Assembly (NCBI GenBank): GCA_024637035.1 | Contig: JAGXFW010000028.1 | Span: 1-57,842, forward strand | Reading direction: 5' to 3' | Origin: Actinomycetes bacterium | Lineage (GTDB): Bacteria; Actinomycetota; Thermoleophilia; RBG-16-64-13 | DNA: 57,842 nucleotides | Notes under the pieces: generated by a model | Told to the model about the DNA's origin: nothing | Databases searched by the model: none | What the model saw: the letters and a program-made list of their open reading frames with translations, nothing else | Shown: in pieces, positions 42,420 through 57,842 of the stretch | How positions within the stretch are numbered: the first letter of the stretch is position 1 | How the letters are laid out: every line of letters starts with the position of its first letter | Made by a program: the position numbers and the translations under genes

Positions 42420-43051
42420 TGGCCGGCATGGACAAGAAGAACATCCACTTCGTGGTGAACGGCGACCCGGTCTCGGCTCTCGTCGGCCCTGAATGGACCC
42501 TGCTGCGCGCCCTGCGCGACGGCGTGGGGCTCACCGGCACCAAGGAAGGCTGCGGCGCCGGCGAATGCGGTGCCTGCACCGTGCTGGTAGACGGCACCGC
42601 CGTCAACTCCTGCCTGTTCCCCGCCCTCGAGGCCGAGGGCCGTAGCGTGACCACGGTCGAGGGACTCACCCAGGCCGACGGCAACCTGCATCCGCTGCAG
42701 AAGGCCTTCATCGAGTACGGCGCCGTGCAGTGCGGCTTCTGTACCCCGGGCGCGCTCATGTCGTCGAAGGCCCTGCTCGACCAGAATCCCGATCCTAGCG
42801 CTCACCAGATCAAGGTGGCCCTGGCGGGCAACCTCTGCCGCTGCACCGGCTACACCCAGATCGTCGAAGCCGTGCAGGCCGCCGCCGCCGAGATGAACGG
42901 CACGGCCGCGGCCGCTGTCGGGAACGGGTCGGGCGCCGCCGCAAGTGGCGCGGGTGCCACTGGCGCCGCCTCCGACACCGCCCTCGCGGGCGTCACCGGC
43001 GCCGTCGACCAGCCCAGCCACGCATCCACGAGCGGGGAGGTGACCGCATGA
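42419..43051 (+). CDS. Molybdenum hydroxylase 2Fe-2S subunit (CoxS/XdhC-ferredoxin type)
   Basis: This 210-aa protein has the plant-type cluster motif GCGAGECGACTVLVDG and the second [2Fe-2S] motif CGFCTPG...GNLCRCTGY, complete by residue about 150. A tail of about 55 residues rich in Ala, Gly and Thr follows. It could start at ATG 42419 or ATG 42428. It overlaps the large subunit by ATGA. Confidence 0.85.
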   Translation: MAGMDKKNIHFVVNGDPVSALVGPEWTLLRALRDGVGLTGTKEGCGAGECGACTVLVDGTAVNSCLFPALEAEGRSVTTVEGLTQADGNLHPLQKAFIEYGAVQCGFCTPGALMSSKALLDQNPDPSAHQIKVALAGNLCRCTGYTQIVEAVQAAAAEMNGTAAAAVGNGSGAAASGAGATGAASDTALAGVTGAVDQPSHASTSGEVTA

Positions 43052-45492
43052 ACCCGCCCGTGATCACCGAGCAGGAACGCGCCCAGAAGGAACTGGCCGT
43101 GGTCGGCAAGGGCATCCCGAAGGCCGACGCCGGGGTCAAGGTGACCGGTCAGGCCCAGTACATGCACGATCTCGAGCTGCCCAACATGCTCTACGGCAAG
43201 ATCCTCTACTCCGACCGGGCCAGTGCCCGCATCGTGTCCATCGACACGTCGGAGGCTGAGCGCATCCCCGGGGTGAAGGCCGTCCTCACCGCCTACAACA
43301 CGCCCGAGATCCGCTTCGGCTTCCTCAAAGACAACATGGCTCTCAAGAAGGACCGCGTCCGCCAGTACCGCGACGAGGTCGCAGCCGTGGCCGCCACCAC
43401 GCCGGAGTTGGCCGAGGCCGCCATCAAGGCGATCGTGGTGCACTACGAAGACCTGCCCGCCGTCTTCGACCCCGAAGAGGCCATGCAGGAGGGCGCGCCG
43501 CTCGTCCACGAGCTGAACCCCAAGGGCGAACCCAACAAGGACAACCGTCTGCGCCTCCCCTGGAAGTTCTCCGCGGGCGACGTCGAGGCCGGCGAAGCCG
43601 CCTCGGCTTTCATCGCCGAGGGTGAGTACGAGACGGGGTGGGTCACCCACTGTTGCCTCGGCACCGCGGGCTGCGTGGCCGCGTTCGACCCCGACGACAA
43701 CCTCACCATGTACTCCATCACCCAGATCCCGAGCCTGGCCAAGGCCGACTTCCAAGAGGCCATGAAGGCCATGGGCGTGCGGGGCAAGGTGCGCGTGGTG
43801 CTCACCACGCTGGGCGGCGGATTCGGTTCGAAGCTCGACACCTACGCCTTCGAGTACATCGCCATGCTGCTGGCGCACCGCACCAAGAAGCCGGTGAAGA
43901 TCCTCTTCGACCGCGAGGAGGAGTTCTTCGCCACCTCGCCGCGCCAGCCCACGCGCATCAAGATCCGGCAGGGTTGCGACGCCGAGGGCCGCCTCACCTT
44001 CCGCGACATCTCCATGGTGCTCGACAACGGCGCCTACACCAGCTGGGGCGCGACCACGCCCACCGTCATGATGATGCCGTCCTCCAGCCTCTACCAGGTG
44101 GAGAACGTGCGCTTCCGCGCTACCTGCGTCTACACCAACAACACCTATGCCCAGGCCATGCGCGGCTACGGCACGCCGCAGGTGACCTTCGCCATCGAGT
44201 CGAACCTCGACGAGTTGGCCGAGAAGGCCGGCATCGAGGGCTACGAGTTCCGCCTGAAGAACGCCAACCTCCCCGACACGGTCACCCCACAGGGCTTCAA
44301 GGTTGACAGCTGCGGTCACGTGCCCTGCCTGGAGGCCGTGGCGGAGCGCATGGATTGGGCCGGGTATCGGGCGGCGAAGGCGGCTCGTCTTGCCGGTGAC
44401 GCCACCGGGGCTGGCGGCGACGCCACCCTGGTCGAGTCGGACACCGCCGGTGTCCCCCCGGTCGCCCAGGCAGCCTGGACAGAGCTTCCCGACAAGGTGC
44501 GCGGCATAGGCATGGCCTGTCTGCTCCACGTTGGCGGCGGTGCCAAGATCTACAAGTCCGACGGCTGCGGCACCCTCATCAAGGTCGACGACCTCGGCTA
44601 CGTGGACGTCTACTCCGGTTCCATGGACATGGGCCAGGGCCTCGACACCATCCTCCGCCAGATCGTGGCCGAGACTTTGGGCCTCGGCGTCGACCGCATC
44701 AACGTCGTCATCGGCGACACCGACGTCTGCCCTTGGGACGCCGGCGCCCACGCCTCCCGCTCCACCTTCGTGGCGGGCAACTCCGCCCTCTACGCCGCCC
44801 AGCAGGTGCGCGAGCAGATCCTGAACTCGGCCGCCGACATCCTCGACACCCCCCGCGACGGTCTCGACCTCACGGGCGGCATGGTGGTCTGCGCCGACGA
44901 CCCCGAGAAGACCACCAAGATCGAGAAGGTGCTGCGCAAGGCCCACTTCGCCTCGGCCGGCAACACCATGTTCATGGCCGCCTACTTCTACGAGCCTCCC
45001 ACCGACCTCCTCGCCGGCGACTTCAAAGGCAACTACTCCATGGCCTACGCCTGGGGTTGCCACGGCGTGGAGGTGGAGGTGGACCGCCGCACCGGCCAGA
45101 TCGACATCGTGCGCTACATCGCCGCCCACGACGTGGGCAAGGCCATCAACCCCCTGCTTCTCCGCGGCCAGATCCTGGGCGGCGGCCTGCAGGGCATCGG
45201 CTGGGCGCTCGCCGAAGAGATGATCTTCGACGAGGGCAAGCTCCTCAACCCCAACTTCCGCGACTACAAGATGCTGACCGCCCTGGACAGCGTGGACGTG
45301 GAACCTATCCTGGTGGAGGACCCGGCCGCGGCCGGCCCCTACGGAGCCAAGGGCATCGGTGAGCCCGGCCTGGTGCCGACGGCCCCAGCCATCGCCAACG
45401 CTATCTACGACGCGGTGGGGATCAGGTTGCGCAAGCTGCCGATGAAGCCGGAGATGGTGCTCGCGGCCATCATGGAGGCGGAGGGGCGGTAG
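43048..45492 (+). CDS. Molybdenum hydroxylase large subunit (CoxL/XdhA type)
   Basis: This 814-aa Mo-cofactor subunit has TLGGGFGSK near residue 255, the MRGYGTPQ loop near 370, SMDMGQGLDT near 530 and the catalytic Glu in GAKGIGEPGL near 772. This is the arrangement of xanthine dehydrogenase, aldehyde oxidoreductase and 4-hydroxybenzoyl-CoA reductase. The CO-dehydrogenase active-site loop with its Cys is not present. It hydroxylates or dehydroxylates a heterocycle or aryl-CoA; the substrate is unknown. An insertion of about 35 residues (44,395-44,490) is low complexity. Its C-terminal third is duplicated at 49,288-50,059. Confidence 0.85.
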   Translation: MNPPVITEQERAQKELAVVGKGIPKADAGVKVTGQAQYMHDLELPNMLYGKILYSDRASARIVSIDTSEAERIPGVKAVLTAYNTPEIRFGFLKDNMALKKDRVRQYRDEVAAVAATTPELAEAAIKAIVVHYEDLPAVFDPEEAMQEGAPLVHELNPKGEPNKDNRLRLPWKFSAGDVEAGEAASAFIAEGEYETGWVTHCCLGTAGCVAAFDPDDNLTMYSITQIPSLAKADFQEAMKAMGVRGKVRVVLTTLGGGFGSKLDTYAFEYIAMLLAHRTKKPVKILFDREEEFFATSPRQPTRIKIRQGCDAEGRLTFRDISMVLDNGAYTSWGATTPTVMMMPSSSLYQVENVRFRATCVYTNNTYAQAMRGYGTPQVTFAIESNLDELAEKAGIEGYEFRLKNANLPDTVTPQGFKVDSCGHVPCLEAVAERMDWAGYRAAKAARLAGDATGAGGDATLVESDTAGVPPVAQAAWTELPDKVRGIGMACLLHVGGGAKIYKSDGCGTLIKVDDLGYVDVYSGSMDMGQGLDTILRQIVAETLGLGVDRINVVIGDTDVCPWDAGAHASRSTFVAGNSALYAAQQVREQILNSAADILDTPRDGLDLTGGMVVCADDPEKTTKIEKVLRKAHFASAGNTMFMAAYFYEPPTDLLAGDFKGNYSMAYAWGCHGVEVEVDRRTGQIDIVRYIAAHDVGKAINPLLLRGQILGGGLQGIGWALAEEMIFDEGKLLNPNFRDYKMLTALDSVDVEPILVEDPAAAGPYGAKGIGEPGLVPTAPAIANAIYDAVGIRLRKLPMKPEMVLAAIMEAEGR

Positions 45493-45781: not shown

Positions 45782-48700
45782 ATGGGTTGCCCGCTCACGA
45801 AGGATGAGGCCAGGGGCCTTGTCAGTCTCCTAGAAGAGCTTTGGGAAACCGACCGAACACTGCTTCATCAACTGTGCGATCTCATTCCCAACGGCCACGA
45901 CGGCATGGAGCAGGGAATCGTTCTTCGTACCCTCTACTCCCAGCGTGACCACAAATCCCGCGTCAACGCCTTTGGCAAGCTCCGGCAGCGTGTTCGCGCA
46001 GCCGCCAACAGCGCCGGTGTGGACTTCTCACTAGAAATCCGTGGAGCCAAGAAGCTCGGCGACCGACGCCGTGTCCAATTCGAGGGTGAGCCACGCCTGG
46101 CTCAAGCCGCGCTCCCGGCCCTACTCCGCGCCGAGGGCCGAATGGTCGACAACCGTGCCCGACCTCTCGACAGGGTGGCGGTGATCTTGGTTGTCAATCG
46201 AAACGAACAGAATGCTGTTCTCAGAACCTTCCTCGGGAACGAACCAGCGGCGTCGACTGAGCGGAATGGCAGGACTTATTCGGAGCTGGGCCGGGTTGGC
46301 GACCATCGGGTGGTCCTGGCCATATGCAGGGCAGGCACCATAGGTCCTGGCGCAGCGCATTCGCGTGTGAGCCAGGCGATCGAGGATTGGTTACCGGAGG
46401 TGGTCATCCCCGTGGGAATCGCCTTTGGCACAGATCCGACAGCACAGAAACTCGGTGACATCCTTGTTTCCGACAAGATCCAATCGTACGAGCAACAGCG
46501 GGTCGGCAAGCGAGGGGTAGGTACGCGAGGGAAGCCCGTCATCGAGCCCAGAGGCGACAAGGTCTCAGCCTCTTGGGTTTGGCTCGAACGCCTCCGCCAA
46601 ATGGATGCTCACTGCGCACAGGGAGACGAGTCCTGGCCTGACGTCCATTTCGGCCTGATCCTCTCTGGTGAGAAGCTTGTTGACCACTTGGACTTTCGGG
46701 ACAGCCTGCTTGAGCTTGCCTCTCAGAAGGTGATCGGCGGTGAGATGGAAGCCGCGGGACTGTACGCCGCCGCTTCTGATGCCGACGTCAAAGTGCATTG
46801 GGTGCTCGTGAAAGGGATATCCGATTGGGGCGACGGCACGAAGAAGGCCGATACGCCCGAGGAACAACGCGTCGGGGAGGAGAGGCAGCTGCGGGCCGCC
46901 ACGAACGCGGCCCGTCTTGTGTGGTCCGCCCTTGCCCTCCAGCCATACGAATCGGCGGGCGCACGGGAGCCACCGCGGTCCGAGCCTGATGCCGGGCTCG
47001 CCGAACCGGTGCTTGCCGCGTGGAAGGCCGCCAGGGATCGCCACGTGAGTTCTCGCGGGCAGTGCGCGTCGATGGAGAAGCCGTGGGAATGGAGCCGTGA
47101 CCCGCCGACGGTGGCCGGCTCGGACCCCTCGGTTGACTCCATGGACTATGTCCGTCGATGGCTTGATGACGAATCCGCTCCCCCGCTCTTCGCCCTCCTC
47201 GGGGAATACGGTATGGGGAAGACCGTTCTATGCCAGAGACTGGCGGAAGCGCTCAACGAGGATGCTCGCGTCGGTTCGTCGCTGCAACACCGCCGTGCCT
47301 TCTATTTCGACCTCCGGGATCTCGTCAACCTGCGAGGGCGCGTGCCCTCTGTACGTGAAGTGTTGACCGAATGCCTTGAACGCAGCTACCGGCCGAAGGA
47401 GGGTCAAGCTCCGCTCACGCCTCAGCTCGTGGAGTGGAGCTACGAGAAGGGCGCGCTGGTCATCTTCGACGGCCTTGACGAGGTCCTTGTGCACCTCGAC
47501 GCGGCCATGGGCCAAGCATTCACGCGAGGACTCCTTAGTTTGGCTCACCCCGAGACGAAGGGCCGTGTGCTGATCTCGTGCCGCACCCATTTCTTCCGGA
47601 CACTGCGCGACCAAGCCACTCACTTCACCGCTGAAGACAGGACCGACAAGACGCCGGCCGCCTTCGACGCCATGACGCTGCTGCCCTTCGATGACGATCA
47701 GGTGCGTGAGTACCTGCGTCTCTCTTTGGGGCTGGACGACCTCGAGCCTCTCATGCAGTCGCTTGCCGCGGTGCACAATCTCCCCGAACTGGCCGCTCGG
47801 CCGTACACCCTCAGTTTGATCGCGGAGCAGTTGCCCGCCATCGAGAGACGAATCAGCGCCGGCGAGACGGTGAGAGGGGTCACGTTGTATCGCGAACTGG
47901 TGCGAGGTTGGCTGGAGCGCGACAATACCAAGCACCACCTCAAGATCGACCACAAGCTGGAGCTTGCCACCCATCTGGCAGCTGAGCTCTGGACTCGCGG
48001 CACGCGTCAGATCGAAGTCGGCGAGCTGGAAACGTGGTTCGGCCGCTGGCTCAACGCCGACCCGGACCTGCGGAACCGGTATGGCTCTTTGTCGCCGGAC
48101 AAGCTGGAGGAGGACCTTCGCAACTCCACCTTTCTCGTGCGCGAGGATGCTGCGAGAGCCGAGGAAAACGGCTTTCGTTTCGCACACACTTCCCTGCAGG
48201 AGTTCTTCCTCGCGCAGTATTTGTTCGACGCTCTGCGACACGATGACCCCGATCGCTGGCGCGTTCCATCGCCCAGCGAGGAGACACTCGACTTCCTAGG
48301 TCAGATGCTCGCAGAGGCCGACGGAGGGGAGAAGAACCCGCTCGCCACCCTCGCGAGATGGCGGCTGGTCTATCGCGCCCAGGTCAGTGAGCTGCTTCTG
48401 CGCTATTCGCTGCGCGCCCGGGAGCGGCGTTTGCCCGCGCCTGCGCTTGATGGCATGGTCCTTTACGGGGCGAATCTCATGGGGTTGACGTTCGAGTCAC
48501 GACTCGGTGACCCGTGGCTCGACCTTCGAGATGTGCATTTCGATGGCGCGAACCTCCGCGAGGTTCAGTTCCGTCGCGTGAACCTGCGCGGAGCGAGGTT
48601 CTTGGGTGCTGACCTACGCGGGGCCCTGCTTGACGAATGTGCCTTGCCAGACACTCGGTTTGCGGGCGCGGATTGTTCCGGCGTCACCATGCGACTGTGC

Positions 48701-49285
48701 GATCTCAATGAAGCGCAGTTCAACGGTGCAAAGACACACCATCTGAAGTGGGTGCGATGTAGCAACGTGCCGCAGGTACCAGTGTCGGTGCTTCGGGCGC
48801 CCGGCCTTGACGCTGACGCGGTGCGTCCACCCTTGGTGCTCTCCACCGGCCACCGCCACTGGGTCCAGTCCTGCGCCTACTCCCCGGACGGCCGCCGACT
48901 CCTCTCGGGCGGCGACGACGGCATGCGCCTCTGGGACGCGGACTCGGGCGAGCTTCTGCGCACCCTCGAAGGCCACCGCCACTGGGTTCAGTCCTGCGCC
49001 TACTCCCCGGACGGCCGCCGACTCCTCTCGGGGGGCGTCGACGGCACCCTGCGCCTCTGGGACGCGGACTCGGGCGAGCTTCTGCGCATCGCCGTGCAGG
49101 GTCGGGGCGGCCACTGCTTGTGGGATTCCGGCAAGAACGAGGTTCTCGAGTGTTCCGGCGAGGCATGGCAATGGCTTGGTTGGGCGGTGATCGAAAGCGA
49201 TGGCAGTCCCCGCATCTTGCCGCTAGAGTACTATGGCGAGGTTCCCGGACCACGACCACACGCTACCGACCTCTCACGGACGTAG
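45782..49285 (+). CDS. STAND NTPase: PNP domain, NACHT, pentapeptide repeats, WD40 (predicted defence receptor)
   Basis: This 1,167-aa multidomain protein has a helical N-terminus of about 95 residues resembling an effector-associated domain. A nucleoside-phosphorylase-fold domain follows (about 128-390, with GGEMEAAGLYAAA and VKGISDWGDG). Next are a NACHT ATPase (Walker A GEYGMGKT near 473, Walker B LVIFDGLDE near 559) and its helical C-terminal part, pentapeptide repeats (about 885-1000, DLRD/ANLRE/NLRG/ADLRG), and two WD40 units (about 1022-1103). NACHT/STAND proteins with PNP domains are known or predicted phage-defence receptors in which ligand sensing by the repeats triggers the effector, possibly nucleotide glycosidic cleavage. 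Activity here is inferred. It has its own promoter and no partner gene. The stop lies 2 bp from a truncated coxL copy. Confidence 0.85.
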   Translation: MGCPLTKDEARGLVSLLEELWETDRTLLHQLCDLIPNGHDGMEQGIVLRTLYSQRDHKSRVNAFGKLRQRVRAAANSAGVDFSLEIRGAKKLGDRRRVQFEGEPRLAQAALPALLRAEGRMVDNRARPLDRVAVILVVNRNEQNAVLRTFLGNEPAASTERNGRTYSELGRVGDHRVVLAICRAGTIGPGAAHSRVSQAIEDWLPEVVIPVGIAFGTDPTAQKLGDILVSDKIQSYEQQRVGKRGVGTRGKPVIEPRGDKVSASWVWLERLRQMDAHCAQGDESWPDVHFGLILSGEKLVDHLDFRDSLLELASQKVIGGEMEAAGLYAAASDADVKVHWVLVKGISDWGDGTKKADTPEEQRVGEERQLRAATNAARLVWSALALQPYESAGAREPPRSEPDAGLAEPVLAAWKAARDRHVSSRGQCASMEKPWEWSRDPPTVAGSDPSVDSMDYVRRWLDDESAPPLFALLGEYGMGKTVLCQRLAEALNEDARVGSSLQHRRAFYFDLRDLVNLRGRVPSVREVLTECLERSYRPKEGQAPLTPQLVEWSYEKGALVIFDGLDEVLVHLDAAMGQAFTRGLLSLAHPETKGRVLISCRTHFFRTLRDQATHFTAEDRTDKTPAAFDAMTLLPFDDDQVREYLRLSLGLDDLEPLMQSLAAVHNLPELAARPYTLSLIAEQLPAIERRISAGETVRGVTLYRELVRGWLERDNTKHHLKIDHKLELATHLAAELWTRGTRQIEVGELETWFGRWLNADPDLRNRYGSLSPDKLEEDLRNSTFLVREDAARAEENGFRFAHTSLQEFFLAQYLFDALRHDDPDRWRVPSPSEETLDFLGQMLAEADGGEKNPLATLARWRLVYRAQVSELLLRYSLRARERRLPAPALDGMVLYGANLMGLTFESRLGDPWLDLRDVHFDGANLREVQFRRVNLRGARFLGADLRGALLDECALPDTRFAGADCSGVTMRLCDLNEAQFNGAKTHHLKWVRCSNVPQVPVSVLRAPGLDADAVRPPLVLSTGHRHWVQSCAYSPDGRRLLSGGDDGMRLWDADSGELLRTLEGHRHWVQSCAYSPDGRRLLSGGVDGTLRLWDADSGELLRIAVQGRGGHCLWDSGKNEVLECSGEAWQWLGWAVIESDGSPRILPLEYYGEVPGPRPHATDLSRT
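48848..49093 (+). repeat. Two near-identical WD40-encoding repeats, 123-bp period
   Basis: Units beginning at 48848 and 48971 encode HRHWVQSCAYSPDGRRLLSG and RLWDADSGELLR in both copies. They differ at few bases, mainly one 3-nt length change around the GGDDG/GGVDG loop. Such DNA-level identity implies recent duplication or ongoing homogenisation of the sensor repeats. Confidence 0.85.
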
Positions 49286-49287
49286 GC

Positions 49288-50059
49288 CGTCTGTCCCTGG
49301 GACGCCGGAGCCCACGCCTCCCGCTCCACTTTCGTGGCGGGCAACTCCGCCCTCTACGCGGCCCAGCAGGTGCGCGAGCAGATCCTGAACTCTGCCGCCG
49401 ACATCCTCGCCACCCCCCGCGACGGCCTCGACCTCGAGGGCGGCCTGGTGGTCTGCGCCGACGACCCCGAGAAGACCACCAAGATCGAGAAGGTGCTGCG
49501 CAAGGCCCACTTCGCGAGCGCCGGCAACACCATGTTCATGGCCGCCTACTTCTACGAGCCTCCCACCGACCTCCTGGCCGGCGACTTCAAAGGCAACTAC
49601 TCCATGGCCTACGCCTGGGGCTGCCACGGGGTCGAGGTGGAGGTGGACCGGCGCACGGGCCAGATCGACATCGTGCGCTACATCGCGGCCCACGACGTGG
49701 GCAAGGCCATCAACCCGCTGCTGCTCCGCGGCCAGATCCTGGGTGGCGGTCTGCAGGGCATCGGCTGGGCGCTCGCCGAGGAGATGATCTTCGACCAAGG
49801 CAAGCTCCTCAACCCGAACTTCCGCGACTACAAGATGCTGACCGCCCTGGACAGCGTGGACGTCGAGCCCATCCTGGTGGAGGACCCGGCCGCCGCCGGC
49901 CCCTACGGTGCCAAGGGCATCGGTGAGCCCGGCCTGCTGCCGACGGCCCCGGCCATCGCCAACGCCATCTACGACGCGGTGGGGATCCGGTTGCGCAAGC
50001 TGCCGATGAAGCCGGAGATGGTGCTCGCGGCGATCATGGAGGCGGAGGGGCGGGGGTAG
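49288..50059 (+). pseudogene. 5'-truncated second copy of the molybdenum hydroxylase large subunit
   Basis: About 255 codons match the C-terminal third of the 814-aa large subunit at 43048-45492. By eye only about five amino-acid differences are seen (Asp to Ala, Thr to Glu, Met to Leu, Glu to Gln, Val to Leu) plus an extra final Gly, but many third-position changes. It lacks the first 560 residues, including the FGSK and MGQG regions, and has no start signal of its own, so it cannot be a functional subunit. Homology begins 2 bp after the stop of the STAND gene. The catalytic-Glu segment GAKGIGEPGL is still intact. Confidence 0.9.
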
Positions 50060-50257: not shown

Positions 50258-50945
50258 ATGGAACGGATTGCGCTTTCGGCTGAGCGCCTCCGCCCGCCCG
50301 ATCTCCCCGGCATCATGAGCGCTTCAGCTGAAGCGGTCGCCTCGCAGGAGCTTTCCATAGTCGAGTTCACCGAGAGTGTGCTCAGCGCCCGAGTGGAGGC
50401 AGCCATCCTGCGGGCTACGGAGACGCGTACGCGCCTGGTTTCCTTCCCGGCCATGAGACCTCGCCGAGTTCGACTTCTCCATCCGGCCCTCCCTCAACCG
50501 CAGGCAGATCATGGCGCTGGGTGGCTGCGCCCTCATTGAGCGGGCCGAGGACCTGCTCCTTCTCAGGCCGCCGAGCGTGGGGAAGTCGCACCTCGCCGTC
50601 GCGCTTGGCATGGAAATCGTTGGTCGTCCCCGGCACGTGCGCCAGCTGGGCTCCTACGCGGACCCCAGCCTGCTCATCGTGAACACCGTGGGGTTCCTAC
50701 TCTTCGGATCCGACGAGGCAGCGCTCCCTTTCGAGGCGGTCTGCCGCCGCTACGAACGGGGCTCCGTCACCCTCACCTCCAACAAGAGCTTCGGAGCCTG
50801 GGCGGAGGTCTTCTCCGGCGACGAGGTGATCGCCATCGCCATTTTCGACCGGCTGCTGCATCACTCTTCAACGATTACGATCAGAGGCGAGAGCTACAGC
50901 CCAAAGGACCGCAAGAAGGCCAGCGTCACGGTGCCGCCAACATGA
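50258..50945 (+). pseudogene. istB: Decayed IS21-family istB (helper ATPase)
   Basis: The reading begins at ATG 50258 and matches IstB up to RLVSFPAM. It then shifts frame near 50455 (an apparent 2-nt loss) and continues with DLAEFDFSIRPSLNRRQI, VGKSHLAVALG, RYERGSVTLTSNKSFGAWAEVF and DRLLHHSSTITIRGESY. Walker A is damaged (RPPSVGKS) and Walker B reads NTVGF instead of DEVGY. About 30 residues are missing between them. No istA is seen upstream. It marks an old insertion next to the truncated coxL. Confidence 0.8.
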
Positions 50946-51041: not shown

Positions 51042-51070
51042 TTGCCAGCCTGTCAGCAGTCTATTATGAT
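51042..51070 (+). promoter_or_regulatory. Candidate promoter of the low-GC gene group
   Basis: TTGCCA (51042-51047), 17-bp spacer, TATGAT (51065-51070), about 88 bp upstream of the PNPOx-like start. This lies where base composition changes from the high-GC backbone. Confidence 0.45.
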
Positions 51071-51157: not shown

Positions 51158-51643
51158 ATGTACGATCCTCTTGAATCAGGCTATGAACTCGCTGACTTCT
51201 CTGGCTTCGTTCTTGCTAGGACCACTGCGGTGATTGCGACCCCTCGAGAAGACTGGGGGGTGCAAGTGGCAACCGTCTTCTACGCTACGGACGATGGTAT
51301 TAACCTCTACGTTAAGTCCCACCTAGCCAGCGATCATGGCACGCAGGTACAGCGAGATTCGCGAGTCGCCCTTGCTGTCTACGATCATGCCAGTACATAC
51401 AGTGAGAAGTACGGAGTGCAGCTTCTGGGAATCTGTCACCAAGTGACTGAACGCGAGGAGCTGATTGCGGCAATTGAGATCTTCTCCAGGACATTTCCAG
51501 GCGCTCGTGAACGGTTTGCGCCCATCGAGGAGCTTCTTTCTCCGGGTGTCAAGAGCACTCTCTTTCGTATTCGAGCCATGTCCGGAAAGATGCTGACTCC
51601 GGCTGGCTACTCTAGCGGCTACCAAGTCTTGGCCCAGGGGTAG
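51158..51643 (+). CDS. Pyridoxamine 5'-phosphate oxidase-like (FMN split-barrel) protein
   Basis: This 161-aa protein has the split-barrel pattern of the PNPOx-like superfamily: FVLARTTAVIATPRED, VATVFYATDDGINLYVKSHLASDHGTQVQRDSRVALAVYD, then a C-terminal helix and strand. Members bind FMN, F420 or heme, so the cofactor is uncertain. ATG 51158 is preceded by GAAGGAGAACAGG. The radical SAM gene follows after 8 bp. GC content falls visibly from here to the end of the HAD gene. Confidence 0.7.
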   Translation: MYDPLESGYELADFSGFVLARTTAVIATPREDWGVQVATVFYATDDGINLYVKSHLASDHGTQVQRDSRVALAVYDHASTYSEKYGVQLLGICHQVTEREELIAAIEIFSRTFPGARERFAPIEELLSPGVKSTLFRIRAMSGKMLTPAGYSSGYQVLAQG

Positions 51644-51651
51644 CCGAGATC

Positions 51652-52524
51652 TTGACGCGTAAATCAGGCATTCGTGGCAAGCGTCGCACGCCTAGTGTGC
51701 GGCCGACTACTAGCCCATTTGACGTTCGAGACCAGCGTGCGATGGTCTCCCTCGGTGCCCTGAACTCCTTCGGCCATTGCCCGTACTCTTGTCCCTTCTG
51801 CTATGTCCAAGCCGACTTTCTCTCGTACCCGGCGCTCGGCGTGCCGGCTATTGTCCAATGGCTGAGCGACCAGCCATCAGACACCTTCGACATTGTCTAT
51901 GTCAGCGGTGACACAGATTCTTTCGCACCTCCCAGAACGCTCGAAGGCCTCTTTCTACTGGAGCAGCTCTTGGCTTTGGGGAAGGACGTGCTCTTCACAA
52001 CGCGAATGGTCTTCGGAGACTCCGCCCTCGATCGCCTGGGGCAAATCGCCGAGATGTATGCGCGAAGTGGTCTCCGGCTGTTCGGCTGCATGAGTGTTGC
52101 GCAGAGTACCATTCCCCGGCTGGAGCCACCCCCGATAGCCTCACCCCTGGCCCGACTCAAGCAGCTTCACACCTTCCGAGCAGCTGGCCTCATTGCGATT
52201 CTCGCAGTTAGGCCCTTTCTGCCCATTGTACCTCTCAGCGACTATGAGTGGATTCTGGCTCAAGCTGTTGACGGGGCGCACGCGGTTCTCGGTGAGGTAT
52301 GGTACGTAGACACCGAGGGCGTGCTGGAGTCGAACGTCTTGGGTAGTGAGAGACTGCAGACATATGATCTCGCGACCATGCCCTTTGACAATAACCTCGC
52401 CACTTGGAAGGTCTACATGGCCCACGAGACGCAGGAGTTCTTCTCTGTTCGCTGCAGAGAACTCGGTCTACCGTTCTTCATGCGAAGTCGCCCCGCTATC
52501 GACTTCATTCGTGCCAACCTCTAA
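51652..52524 (+). CDS. Radical SAM protein
   Basis: This 290-aa protein has the SAM-cluster motif CX3CX2C as CPYSCPFC near residue 43, preceded by SLGALNSFGH, a context like spore-photoproduct-lyase or SPASM-free DNA/RNA-acting members. The rest forms a partial TIM barrel (YVSGDTDSF, LFTTRMVFGDSALDRLG). It starts at TTG 51652, or possibly ATG 51742, which would sit 13 residues before the cluster. The pairing with a PNPOx-like flavoprotein suggests a redox partner. Substrate unknown. Confidence 0.75.
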   Translation: MTRKSGIRGKRRTPSVRPTTSPFDVRDQRAMVSLGALNSFGHCPYSCPFCYVQADFLSYPALGVPAIVQWLSDQPSDTFDIVYVSGDTDSFAPPRTLEGLFLLEQLLALGKDVLFTTRMVFGDSALDRLGQIAEMYARSGLRLFGCMSVAQSTIPRLEPPPIASPLARLKQLHTFRAAGLIAILAVRPFLPIVPLSDYEWILAQAVDGAHAVLGEVWYVDTEGVLESNVLGSERLQTYDLATMPFDNNLATWKVYMAHETQEFFSVRCRELGLPFFMRSRPAIDFIRANL

Positions 52525-52637
52525 TGTCCATAGCCGCCATGCCTTCTTTGTCAGAATCCCTGGTGAGTGTGCCGGCACTGTGTACCGGTATCGGTTTTCC
52601 ACACTCACTTCTCTCCGGCCGTCGGGATGAATAGCTC

Positions 52638-53984
52638 ATGACACGCCTTTCGAACTTCGTCAATCTTCTTGATCGCTACGTGGAGGTGTCGCACGTATAC
52701 CATCAGGGCATGACAGGGAATGATGTGAAAGTTCTCGTCAATGACGTGAAGGGCCGTGTCACTCGCCTTGTAGCACTGATTGAATCCGTGCCCGATGGAC
52801 CGCCGAAGTCACCTTTGGCCACACTGAGTCCGGAACGGTCCGGTGGACAGGCAGTCGTACCCACAAACGACGTATTGTTCATCACACAGCTGTATCAGAA
52901 GAACGTACTCGAACGACTCGCGTCTAAAGACACACCAGTTTCACCCCACAATATCGCTAAGCTCCGCGCAGTACTCAAACTTGATCCAGCTGAGTTTTTG
53001 GGCTACTTCCACACCCCAAGCTATGCATGGGATGTACTCACTGAGTTGTCTAGCCTTTCGGTTGTTCCCGACCCTCCGACCCTCGCTGCCAGAGATATGA
53101 TTCATATGCATGCGATTGAGTTACAATTGCATCTCGCGAGAGTCATTGCGCAGTCGCGTCTATCATCGCCATCGCAAGAGATCGCTCTGACGGGAGTGAT
53201 TACTGTCGATCAACTTAATAAGCTTCAGAGCGCGAATCGGTTGGTGGACAAACTCGTGGAGTTTGCCGTCCCTCGAGATCCAGCTGACCTATTGAATGAG
53301 CTGGCACCTCTTGTCGGGAAGCTGGAGGGAGTTGCACGTATCATTGATAACCGGAGAGATGATGTACTCAGGCGGCTGCAGCAGGAGACTCTTGCGTTTC
53401 CTGATACATTGGAAGAGAGCGCAATACGCCACAAGGCAGTCGACGTGTGTGATATGTTTGTGATATTTGGACTGGCAGCCGCCTATTCAGCCTGGTTTGG
53501 CGTCGCAACTGCGGGTATTGACGGGGGTATGGAGCAGGCTGCTTTGAGGAAGCACATTCTTTTCTGTACAAGGATACTCCTGGACGAGAAGCGTTGGGTG
53601 GTATGCCGTGAGGTTGGTGCGATGGCTTTGGAAATACTTCCCGAGTTGAACAAGACGTCTAACCCCGAAAGGCCTTTGGATGGGACCTATATGCCGCGCG
53701 CGAACTGGTTCTTCGCACGGCAGATGGCGGGCGAGGCCGTAGAGGATGAGGTCCGTCAGTGGGAGGTCAATGGGGAGGACGTCCATCCCCGCTACGGGTT
53801 CTTGAAGCAGGTTCTGATCGGTAGTTTCGCTGAGGCCGCCGCTGTGGGAAGGCGGTTGTTGGTCGAGGTTGAGGAGACGAACCGTACCAATCTTTGTATT
53901 GAGGAGGTTAAGGAGTGGCCGATTCTCCAGGGCTTCCGCGACTCCCCGGACGGAGAGGGTCTGCTGCGTGAGTTTGGCTCCTAG
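52638..53984 (+). CDS. Unknown 448-aa protein
   Basis: I do not recognise this protein. It is predicted soluble and largely helical, with no obvious catalytic motif, signal peptide or membrane segment. A conserved-looking patch HKAVDVCDMFVIFGLAAAYSAWF (residues about 264-286) is hydrophobic. Its 3' end overlaps the next gene by 17 bp, placing it first in a four-gene overlapping operon with a two-TM protein, a Gfo/Idh/MocA oxidoreductase and a HAD phosphatase. Codon use is less GC-rich than in the genes left of 50,000. Confidence 0.75.
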   Translation: MTRLSNFVNLLDRYVEVSHVYHQGMTGNDVKVLVNDVKGRVTRLVALIESVPDGPPKSPLATLSPERSGGQAVVPTNDVLFITQLYQKNVLERLASKDTPVSPHNIAKLRAVLKLDPAEFLGYFHTPSYAWDVLTELSSLSVVPDPPTLAARDMIHMHAIELQLHLARVIAQSRLSSPSQEIALTGVITVDQLNKLQSANRLVDKLVEFAVPRDPADLLNELAPLVGKLEGVARIIDNRRDDVLRRLQQETLAFPDTLEESAIRHKAVDVCDMFVIFGLAAAYSAWFGVATAGIDGGMEQAALRKHILFCTRILLDEKRWVVCREVGAMALEILPELNKTSNPERPLDGTYMPRANWFFARQMAGEAVEDEVRQWEVNGEDVHPRYGFLKQVLIGSFAEAAAVGRRLLVEVEETNRTNLCIEEVKEWPILQGFRDSPDGEGLLREFGS

Positions 53985-54786
53985 GACATGGCACAAGTAC
54001 GCGCCGACCTTGGTTCTGGGTGGCTTAATTCTAGGGGGTGTCCTTGTCGGTGGTCTCTGGTCCGTGGACCGTCGGGTCCTTGTTGGGACTGAGGCCCCCG
54101 GATGGCTATCGTTGCTGACGGTGTTCTCTGCCGTGGTTACTACCGGGGCGACCTCCCTCTACCCCTACGCTACGTGGCAACTACTGGTGGAGACCCGCAC
54201 GGCCAATGCTGAGAACCGGCAGCTAAGTCGGCACCTTCATCAAGACACCTTGGCGCCCTACGTTTGCCTCAACGGTATCCGTGCCGACCTGTATGTGACA
54301 AGCCGGAAGAATGAATCCTTGAGGGTTCATGCGGCGGATCTAGTGGAAGGACGCGGGGACGTTGTGATTGTGAACTCCTTGGGGGAGTACTCGGTCGATG
54401 AATTGGGTCTGAAGGGAAGTGTGGATTTCGCGCTAGGCAATACATCGGACAACACGGCCGATGCAAGGGTACATGTGAACGGAGTCTTCGGGGAATTGTC
54501 TCGCAAGATCATCATAGGACCGAAGGGAACCGAATCGGTTCAGTTCCGAATTGATGGGAGTATTCCGGATACAAGAGCTCTCATGTCGCTTCTCGATCAG
54601 AACGAAGAGGCGACCGTAAGTGTGTCTTCGAAGGGCCCGGGCATTTCGGCTACGGACCACTTCGAAGCGTCGTGGGTGCTGGGCGTAGGTGCTGGCGAAG
54701 GTCAAGTTGTCGCATCAGTTTCAGGCGCCTTCGCATACACTCGCCGCTATCGCCGATACGAAGCGAGCGAGGAACAACATGTCTGA
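53968..54786 (+). CDS. Unknown membrane protein with two N-terminal TM segments
   Basis: This 272-aa product has two hydrophobic segments near the N-terminus (about 9-29 TLVLGGLILGGVLVGGLW and 42-62 LLTVFSAVVTTGATSLYPYA) and a soluble C-terminal domain of about 190 residues rich in beta strands. GTG 53968, overlapping the upstream gene by 17 bp behind GAGAGGG, is the likely start; TTG 53974 is an alternative. It overlaps the next gene by 8 bp. It may anchor the operon's products at the membrane. No family was recognised. Confidence 0.65.
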   Translation: MSLAPRTWHKYAPTLVLGGLILGGVLVGGLWSVDRRVLVGTEAPGWLSLLTVFSAVVTTGATSLYPYATWQLLVETRTANAENRQLSRHLHQDTLAPYVCLNGIRADLYVTSRKNESLRVHAADLVEGRGDVVIVNSLGEYSVDELGLKGSVDFALGNTSDNTADARVHVNGVFGELSRKIIIGPKGTESVQFRIDGSIPDTRALMSLLDQNEEATVSVSSKGPGISATDHFEASWVLGVGAGEGQVVASVSGAFAYTRRYRRYEASEEQHV

Positions 54787-55858
54787 CGAGGCCGGAACCC
54801 TGCGTGTTGGAATTGTCGGAACAGGCGTCGGAATCCGAACCCATCTCGCGGGTCTCCAGTCAGTCGAGCAAGTCAAGGTAGTCGGTGTGGTCGGGTCCTC
54901 CTTGGAGAGAGCTAGGGAACACCTATCCCATGCCGGAGCACCCGTAGATCTGGCTCGCAGCTGGGAGGACCTGTTGATGGCCGAGCCTGACCTAGTCTGT
55001 ATTACGACGCCACTCGACGCCCGGGGCCAATACATCGATAGCTTGAGGGCCTTCAAAGGCTCGCTCCTCTTCGAAAAGCCAGTCGTGCGAAGCATGGCGA
55101 ACGGTGCCGACGTTAGGAGCGCATTGGGAGACTCCTTTGAGCGCTCGTATACCGATTTCCAGCTACGCGGTGTGGAGGCCTTTCAGTTGGCCCGGGCCTC
55201 CGCCCGGGCGGGGCTACTGGGCCCATTGTACGAGATAACCCTCTTCGAGAGAACATCGGCCCTCAGACGATCTTCTGTTCCGGCTTGGATGCGTACCAGG
55301 CGTACGGGTGGCGGTCAGATGTTCGCAATGGGCAGCCATCTACTCGACTTGGGTATCTTCTTGGCGGACGTTTCCTATGATGAGGCCCTGACAGGGAGTC
55401 CCTCGGGATTCATCGAAGCCCCTCGCCGTAGTTGGACTTCCGTCGTCGACGTTCTGGAAAGCAGTGATGAGTCATTCGGGTGTTCACTTAGTGTCCGAGG
55501 GTGCCATGTTCTGCTTACGACAACATCGATAAGCCCCGGTCCTCGGACTCTGGATGTCCGCGTGGAGGGTACTGAGGGATGCCTTGAGTTCCGCTACAGG
55601 GACGGCTGCGGACAGATGCGAATTTGGAACGGGGATGGATCAGCTGCTTCGTACGCCGTTGGACCCAGAGCGGAGCTGATTGCCCAAACCCAGGGTGTGG
55701 CGCAACTCGACCCATCGTTGTTTCGTGTAGCGTATCCCAGCTACTTTGAGATGGTTGCAGATAGAATCAGAGGGCGTAATGGGCATGCTGTTGCCACTCT
55801 CATGGATGGAATTAGGAACTCCGAGATACTTCAGAAATCAATTGAGAGATGGACGTAA
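54779..55858 (+). CDS. Gfo/Idh/MocA-family oxidoreductase
   Basis: This 359-aa protein has an N-terminal Rossmann motif (RVGIVGTGVGIRTHLAGL), the conserved FEKPVV Glu-Lys-Pro near residue 101 that contacts the nicotinamide, and GGGQMFAMGSHLLDLGIFL with the catalytic His near 192. The family oxidises or reduces sugars, inositols and related polyols with NAD(P). ATG 54779 overlaps the upstream TM gene, and its 3' end overlaps the HAD gene by 10 bp. A sugar or sugar-phosphate substrate is suggested by the HAD neighbour. Confidence 0.8.
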   Translation: MSDEAGTLRVGIVGTGVGIRTHLAGLQSVEQVKVVGVVGSSLERAREHLSHAGAPVDLARSWEDLLMAEPDLVCITTPLDARGQYIDSLRAFKGSLLFEKPVVRSMANGADVRSALGDSFERSYTDFQLRGVEAFQLARASARAGLLGPLYEITLFERTSALRRSSVPAWMRTRRTGGGQMFAMGSHLLDLGIFLADVSYDEALTGSPSGFIEAPRRSWTSVVDVLESSDESFGCSLSVRGCHVLLTTTSISPGPRTLDVRVEGTEGCLEFRYRDGCGQMRIWNGDGSAASYAVGPRAELIAQTQGVAQLDPSLFRVAYPSYFEMVADRIRGRNGHAVATLMDGIRNSEILQKSIERWT

Positions 55859-56793
55859 ATAGTTTGGATATTGAGTCCATGCATCGTCAGTTCTCACGAA
55901 ACGTGAGAGGCTGCAGAGCGAGGAGTGAAGTTCAAGGTGGGCGTAGCTTGCGTTCACCTAGGAAGATGTTTCGGGGGAGTATCGAGGCACTTGTTTTTGA
56001 CTTGGATGGAACAGCTGTTCCCAACGGGTATCAAGGAGTGCCTCGTGGCCACCTGTTAGCTACCTTGCGAGAACTGCAGAAATGTATGCACGTCTGTGCT
56101 GCAACCGGCAGACCGTGGTCTACAGGCAGAGACTTGATTCGTGCTCTGGGCATAATTGATCCATGCGTTACGGGTGGCGGTTCGCAAATAGTGGACCCAG
56201 TTGCCGGGAAGGTCATCTGGGAGGCGCGTCTATCGGTCGAGCAGATTGAAGAAATCTTCCGCAGATGCGAGCCGTACCCGTATGAGATCCTGTACGATGA
56301 CGAGTTCATTGGCGGGGGAAAGCCGGCATGGGAGCGCGCTGCCGCGCGGTCCACAAGTTCCCTGTATGTGATGAATGTCCTTCCGCTGGACGAGATGCGT
56401 CTTGTTGGCTTGATTCGGGGGGTCCTTGGTGTCACCTGTCGCAAAGGGTTGTCGTGGAGCGGCGTAGGAGTTGATTTGCACGTTACCACTGTGGACGCGA
56501 CAAAGAGGGAAACCCTGTATCGGTTGTGGGCTCTAACGGGCGTCAACCCCGAGGCCACGGTTGGTTTCGGGGATGGAGCAAACGACATTGGTTTGTTTGA
56601 GGCGGTCGGCTGGCGTGTAGCAGTCCAGGGTGCGGCCCCGGAGCTATCAATCTTGGCCGATGCAATGTGCGCCCCCCCAAGTGAGGATGGGCTGAGCAGG
56701 ATTCTGCATGAGATGTTCTTTGAACCGTCCCGGACTCGCCTGAGACGCAATTCCCTGAGTCCTTCGTCGTCCACAGGGGACCGCTCACGATAG
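55849..56793 (+). CDS. HAD-superfamily (Cof/IIB-type) phosphatase
   Basis: This 314-aa protein has HAD motif I FDLDGT near residue 50, motif II in AATGRPWS, and motif IV GFGDGANDIGLF near 245, in the order of Cof-type sugar phosphatases with a C2 cap. ATG 55849 gives an odd basic extension of about 39 residues; ATG 55966 would start right before motif I but has a poorly spaced Shine-Dalgarno. It is the last gene of the overlapping operon and probably dephosphorylates a sugar or nucleotide sugar intermediate. Confidence 0.75.
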   Translation: MDVNSLDIESMHRQFSRNVRGCRARSEVQGGRSLRSPRKMFRGSIEALVFDLDGTAVPNGYQGVPRGHLLATLRELQKCMHVCAATGRPWSTGRDLIRALGIIDPCVTGGGSQIVDPVAGKVIWEARLSVEQIEEIFRRCEPYPYEILYDDEFIGGGKPAWERAAARSTSSLYVMNVLPLDEMRLVGLIRGVLGVTCRKGLSWSGVGVDLHVTTVDATKRETLYRLWALTGVNPEATVGFGDGANDIGLFEAVGWRVAVQGAAPELSILADAMCAPPSEDGLSRILHEMFFEPSRTRLRRNSLSPSSSTGDRSR

Positions 56794-56820: not shown

Positions 56821-57678
56821 CTAGAGCCGGAAGAGCTTGTCATCCTGCGAGAGCGACACGACCTCATAGAGGTCCACATCGATCTCAGGGGGTAACTTGT
56901 CGCGGAGGACCGGGAGGATGTACTGGCAATCAGCGTCGGAGACGATCTCAGTAAGCAGACTGCTGATTTGGTTGTCGTGTACGTTCTCGATTTGGTCCTG
57001 CAGAATGAAGTGCAGGCAGCGAATGTTCTCGGCGTCTGCGAACTGGATGTATGCCAGATCGAAGGCCGCGATCTGGCCCTTCTTCTTGCCGGTTCCTAGA
57101 TTGCCTTGAATGCTGGTCACCTTCAGATCAAGCCCCTTCTTGTCCCAGTCGGCGCTCAGCACGAACTGTTCGCCGTAAAGCCTCGACGATATGGCGGAGA
57201 AGTACACGTTGAACTGAGCCACCCTGCGTTGAAGCACGTCGTCCTGAGACTCGATGCCTTCGTTGATCGCCCTCAGCTGGGCTTCGATCTCGCGGATGCG
57301 TGCGGTCGAAATATCCCATCTGCGCTTCTGTTCCTCGAGGCGGCCTCGCTGCTCGTGAGCCTGGTTCAGGGCCGTGATGAGGTTCTGAAGGTTCTCGACA
57401 ATGCCGAGTCTGCGTAGCTGCCCACTTAGCGCTTTCTCCCTCATCAAAGCCACTGAAATCGCTCGTTTCGCCCCACCCAACTCGGTCTCGAGCGAGGGCA
57501 GTTCGCGGGTGATGAACTCGACCTTCTCCCGGACCATGTTGTTGTGGAAGGCGACCGTCGCCTCGAACGACCTCTGGAGATTTGGAAGCAGGAGTTTCGC
57601 CTCCTCGTACAGCGCCCGGATGTTCTGGGGTTCGACATCGCTTAGTTCATTCTCGAGTTCGGCCCTACTCTCAAGCAC
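56821..57678 (-). pseudogene. 5'-truncated SMC/ABC-like ATPase gene (DUF2326-type C-terminal half)
   Basis: Of the expected protein of more than 500 aa only about 285 C-terminal residues remain, from GTG 57678. They comprise a coiled coil (about 1-150, Glu/Arg/Leu-rich) and a C-terminal domain with GKKKGQIAAFDLAYIQFAD and FILQDQIENVHDNQIS, resembling the C-terminal ATPase lobe of DUF2326/SMC-like proteins used in conflict systems. No Walker A half exists upstream: the in-frame reading runs into an IS3-type element end by about 57,700 and stops at 57,757. The assignment to DUF2326 is by eye. Confidence 0.6.
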
Positions 57679-57759
57679 GAGGTCGCGCCGAAGCGAGAGG
57701 CAGAGGTGGCCGGGTTCCCTTGGACAGCTTCCCGGGGTTCTTAGGTGATGACCCGCTCA

Positions 57760-57842
57760 TCAGGCAGCCGTTCGTTCCGTCAGTAGTGTAGCCCAGTAGA
57801 TCTCGTCCGGGGTCTTGTTGTTAAGGCCTTGATGCCGGCGCC
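57760..57842 (-). mobile_element. 3' end of an IS3-type transposase (partial)
   Basis: The last 26 codons of a minus-strand reading end at TGA 57760-57762 and encode RRHQGLNNKTPDEIYWATLL, the typical C-terminus of the DDE integrase domain of IS3/IS481-like transposases. The rest lies beyond the window. The sequence between it and the DUF2326-type remnant (about 57,700-57,757) probably holds the terminal inverted repeat. Confidence 0.75.

Follow-up and report, generated by a model that had tools for sequence, protein, structure and literature searches.

A candidate imported enzymatic cassette with two orphan genes at a coxL-tail hotspot in an Actinomycetes bacterium

Prokaryotic viperins (pVips) are radical SAM enzymes of defence, and the radical SAM models of the PA0069/Rv2578c type are related to spore photoproduct lyase. 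A search of the literature found no published system made up of radical SAM, Gfo/Idh and HAD proteins. Defence hotspots beside core genes are known, for example in Pseudomonas aeruginosa (PMC10250203). According to a review, the ABC-3C systems are grouped with the Lamassu superfamily, which has HNH nucleases among its effectors (PMC10586767). The locus described here resembles the P. aeruginosa hotspots in that accessory defence cargo is repeated at one site in related genomes. It differs from them in being bounded by the duplicated tail of a coxL-like gene, and in that the cassette under study is not a known defence system.

The window, i.e., the whole stretch of DNA analyzed (57,842 nucleotides), carries six plus-strand genes near its right end. 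All of them were found at the coordinates given in a first-pass annotation made from the sequence alone. These genes, with their predicted products, and the promoter-like site in front of them are as follows:

51042-51070, plus strand: promoter-like site TTGCCA-17-TATGAT, 5' of gene A
51158-51643, plus strand: gene A (161 aa), putative split-barrel protein of the PNPOx-like type
51652-52524, plus strand: gene B, putative radical SAM protein, 290 aa, TTG start
52638-53984, plus strand: gene C, orphan protein, 448 aa
53968-54786, plus strand: gene D, orphan protein, 272 aa, GTG start; N-terminal hydrophobic hairpin and soluble domain
54779-55858, plus strand: gene E, putative Gfo/Idh/MocA dehydrogenase, 359 aa
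55849-56793, plus strand: gene F, putative Cof-type HAD-IIB phosphatase, 314 aa; start perhaps at 55966 instead

The genes are tightly packed. The spacing between genes A and B is 8 bp, and the overlaps of 8-17 bp annotated earlier for the last four genes were found again (C/D 17 bp, D/E 8 bp, E/F 10 bp), the start codon of gene D lying within the 3' end of gene C. The E/F value was obtained with the longest frames and depends on 55849 being the start of gene F. The typical HAD N-terminus is better matched by an ATG that lies within the frame at 55966, near the first HAD motif. Inspection of the sequence revealed ribosome-binding-like sites upstream of genes A, D, and E. The promoter-like site before gene A is well positioned, but sites of this kind are no more numerous in the region than expected by chance. 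Genes B and C are separated by 113 bp. No terminator-like site was found in this gap, and a hairpin considered there folds no better than shuffled sequences (z -0.55). The search in Rfam gave no family match, and the short repeats at the edges of the six-gene cassette look like chance.

The six genes have a GC of 0.54-0.58 and a GC3 of 0.57-0.66, at a window average of about 0.67. Their codon usage was assessed by a log-odds score built from the native genes, which reach 0.61 +/- 0.11 when each is left out in turn, whereas the cassette genes score from -0.30 to -0.64; this gap is far beyond chance. Thus, the calculation of GC and codon usage per gene, proposed as a check in the first-pass annotation, agrees with its claim that the genes are lower in GC than the backbone.

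As for gene A, its product narrowly misses the cut-off of the Pfam model PF01243 (E 7e-6, 26.8 bits, cut-off 28.1 bits) and matches TIGR03618 with E 2e-7; the nearest solved structure is that of Rv2991 (1rfe, E 1e-4). The product of gene B has the cluster motif CX3CX2C (CPYSCPFC, residues 43-50) within a radical SAM domain, which assigns it, by this motif, to the putative members of the radical SAM superfamily. Its match with the Pfam Radical_SAM model (E 0.005) lies under the curated cut-off, and its full-length relative matches the same model with E 4e-6. This relative (25% identity over the full length, E 4.5e-10) is encoded by an ORF in a genome from a different class of the same phylum (G274, L003). 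It matches the rSAM_PA0069 model with E 5.6e-9 and the models of the SPL type weakly. This match and the kept CX3CX2C motif liken gene B to the group of PA0069, Rv2578c, and spore photoproduct lyase, whereas B itself gives E 0.11 and scores far under all curated cut-offs. The structure model of the gene B product is too poor for use (pLDDT 44).

In the G274 genome (L012:1415-3860, also L003), phosphoribosyltransferase-like and deoxynucleoside-kinase-like genes lie downstream of the radical SAM gene, and such neighbors give a hint of nucleotide-type chemistry. The phosphoribosyltransferase-like product has an N-terminal hydrophobic segment, and a transposase-like gene adjoins this region (L012:1415-3860). 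Further genomes contain at most partial and weak matches to gene B. Among these weak matches, the surroundings were read only for that in G313, which turned out to be a longer protein with ordinary neighbors and was set aside. The scan of GTDB contigs with the gene B alignment detected no relatives.

None of genes A or C-F stands beside the G274 relative of B, which, together with the 8-bp spacing of A and B, the overlaps of C-F, and the 113-bp gap between B and C, would suit two unrelated imported units, namely, a redox and radical SAM pair (A-B) and an overlapping group (C-F), placed side by side by chance. We regard such an origin as unlikely, since all six genes share their direction, their GC3 range, and a similarly shifted codon usage, and the B-C gap contains nothing like a terminator. 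The earlier view of the genes as one unit is thus upheld by the shared direction, overlaps, and codon bias and weakened at the B-C gap.

The product of gene E matches PF01408 (E 1e-10) and PF22725 (E 9e-7), both above the cut-off, and its Rossmann GxVGxG, EKP, and GxHxxD motifs are intact. The combination of a Rossmann domain with the catalytic EKP and GxHxxD motifs indicates a Gfo/Idh/MocA dehydrogenase. It shares these signatures with DgpA and inositol 2-dehydrogenase, whereas its similarity to all such enzymes is low and its scores are far under every equivalog cut-off. The product of gene F matches PF08282 (E 9e-24) and TIGR01484 (above cut-off), and all four HAD motifs (DxDGT, ATGR, TK, and GDGxND) are intact, which, with the subfamily match, points to a HAD-IIB phosphatase. 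It is like the Cof-type HAD-IIB phosphatases of the BT4131 and YidA type in these motifs and in the Hydrolase_3 match, and differs from them in scoring below the Cof-subfamily cut-off. The relatives of E and F are related at the level of the superfamily only, and both superfamilies are very broad. The homologues of E in two genomes and that of F on a Microbacterium plasmid have unrelated neighbors.

In the case of genes C and D, the searches against Pfam, NCBIfam, PADLOC, and PHROGs gave nothing above noise, in line with the first-pass annotation, in which two members of the set belonged to no known family. The product of gene C is predicted to be mostly helical with very low confidence; the structure model made in the AlphaFold2 program, as had been suggested, has pLDDT 37 and is too poor for use. 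No homologues of gene C were found in 296 genomes of the phylum, GTDB contigs, viral contigs, plasmids, or phages. In 199 genomes of the class, matches with E 0.01-0.05 cover short stretches and were judged to be chance. Homologues of gene D were absent from 217 genomes, plasmids, and viral contigs. Gene D had been described as encoding a protein with two transmembrane segments; the first segment is strongly hydrophobic and the second is not. A second copy of the whole cassette was found nowhere else in the genomes, contigs, plasmids, and viral contigs searched. Since the scans of GTDB contigs need conserved short peptides and distant relatives could escape them, absence from these scans is no proof of uniqueness.

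The surroundings of the cassette in the window consist of the following elements:

43048-45492: coxL-like molybdopterin oxidoreductase gene, intact
45782-49285, plus strand: STAND gene (NNH6-PNP-NACHT-pentapeptide-WD40, PNP being a phosphorylase part)
49288-50053, plus strand: 766-bp copy of the coxL-like gene 3' end, 94.8% identity to 44724-45489
50511-50945, plus strand: remnant of a decayed IS21 istB gene, bordering the cassette on the left (Pfam IstB_IS21, E 2.8e-34)
56821-57678, minus strand: C-terminal part of PDC-M68B (SMC-like, DUF2326), interrupted by IS3
57679-57842: IS3 sequence (orfB) at the window end; the contig of the window ends inside this IS3 copy

The istB match on the left and the DUF2326 and IS3 orfB matches on the right bear out the IS21 remnant and the IS3-disrupted gene annotated at the two sides. 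The N-terminal part of PDC-M68B, with a frameshift, is located at the end of another contig, C10 (L047), together with its M68A partner gene (HNH-CTD10), and C10 terminates in IS3 orfA. The split PDC-M68B gene and the matching IS3 ends suggest that the window contig is joined to C10. No target-site duplication is evident at the IS3 junction of the two contigs. According to the profile searches (M68A E 8.5e-32; CTD10 E 3e-13; M68B parts E 8e-12 and 4e-25), this neighbor appears to be an ABC-3C system of the PDC-M68 type, with an HNH-CTD10 protein and an SMC-like ATPase, M68B being broken.

With both neighbors degraded (a partial istB; M68B with a frameshift and an IS3 insertion), the cassette could be decaying passenger DNA that has no present function. 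This seems very unlikely, as none of the six reading frames is interrupted along the 5.6 kb, and B, E, and F have kept their catalytic motifs.

The STAND gene lies between the coxL-like gene and the repeated 766-bp tail; its WD40 region contains two 118-bp stretches that are 95% identical. Beyond the M68 genes, contig C10 carries two short decayed coxL-like pieces. A PemK/MazF-like toxin gene (L047:13300-13845) adjoins these pieces. In G524, a sister species belonging to the same genus, the tail of the coxL-like gene is repeated around an HTH-ImmA gene that matches the RmrA models, and the copies also enclose a small gene without a family match. In another genome of the same family (G528; L064, G528:C1:2575000-2591500), PDC-S01 lies downstream of the coxL-like gene, and HmaA, a DUF4062 gene that also carries HATPase_c_4, and pieces of HmaB come next. 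The coxL-like genes of G526 and G530 are merely 65% identical; their downstream side was readable in G526, where TRAP transporter-like genes and no defence genes were found, and not in G530. From the defence-type genes here and in the two relatives, it follows that the site repeatedly gathers defence-type cargo. The cassette sits in this accretion hotspot, which adjoins the 3' end of the coxL-like gene. The composition, codon usage, IS debris, and repeated coxL-tail hotspot together give good support to the view, already expressed in the first-pass annotation, that the six genes were acquired horizontally.

The same annotation proposed a possible role in defence. Under such a role, the enzymes would make or modify a nucleotide or another signal that stops infection, with D as an effector or anchor and C as a sensor. 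The hotspot is shared with the PNP-NACHT STAND gene and the PDC-M68 ABC-3C system, and with the RmrA/ImmA-like and the PDC-S01 and HmaA/HmaB genes of the two relatives; prokaryotic viperins provide a radical SAM precedent. Against this role, hotspots hold cargo other than defence genes too, and none of the six proteins matches PADLOC at E <= 1, so genes A-F do not correspond to a known anti-phage system there. The same holds for gene B as a prokaryotic viperin, the radical SAM defence enzymes being included in PADLOC: B resembles the pVips in its radical SAM motif and defence-rich location and differs in this missing match and in that the cassette has no nucleotide kinase gene. In addition, the codon log-odds take intermediate values for the STAND gene (0.08) and for the genes of PDC-M68 (0.06 to 0.30), whereas those of the cassette are -0.30 or lower. 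The cassette is therefore probably of separate origin and likely arrived apart from the adjacent defence genes. The intermediate values also indicate that amino-acid composition accounts in part for the low overall GC seen in the SMC-like neighbor. On balance, anti-phage defence is the chief alternative, made likelier by the setting, yet a rather unlikely function. The proposed link is strengthened by the site, with its defence-type genes here and in two relatives; it does not extend to the cassette proteins, none of which matches a defence model.

Tentatively, with a chance that falls just short of even, we read the six genes as an imported, operon-like enzymatic cassette carried as hotspot cargo and yielding a modified sugar- or nucleoside-type metabolite. 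Here, the radical SAM reaction of B would act on a small molecule or a nucleic-acid component, and A would supply or remove electrons via a flavin-type cofactor. E may oxidize or reduce a sugar-like hydroxyl with NAD(P), and F may remove a phosphate. D could tether the set to the membrane, and C, as a helical protein, could serve as a scaffold or sensor. That the product is a sugar or nucleotide is a guess derived from the enzyme classes. A biosynthetic or modification cassette, possibly linked to defence, is the most economical reading of these genes. A more specific proposal is distinctly improbable, namely, that they form a system of defence or signalling not described before, whose divergent radical SAM protein, flavin-type partner, sugar dehydrogenase, and phosphatase would produce a modified nucleoside or sugar acting via the membrane-anchored protein and the helical orphan.

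The new element is an enzyme set containing orphans in a newly noticed coxL-tail hotspot; it is not put forward as a new system and merits testing. If a new metabolite is made, radical SAM chemistry with two orphan partners would join the cargo of bacterial genomic hotspots. Independently of this, the coxL-tail hotspot is a place where, within this bacterial family, further unknown cargo of the defence type may be sought, and the tail copies at its flanks point to a route by which such hotspot cargo may be gained.
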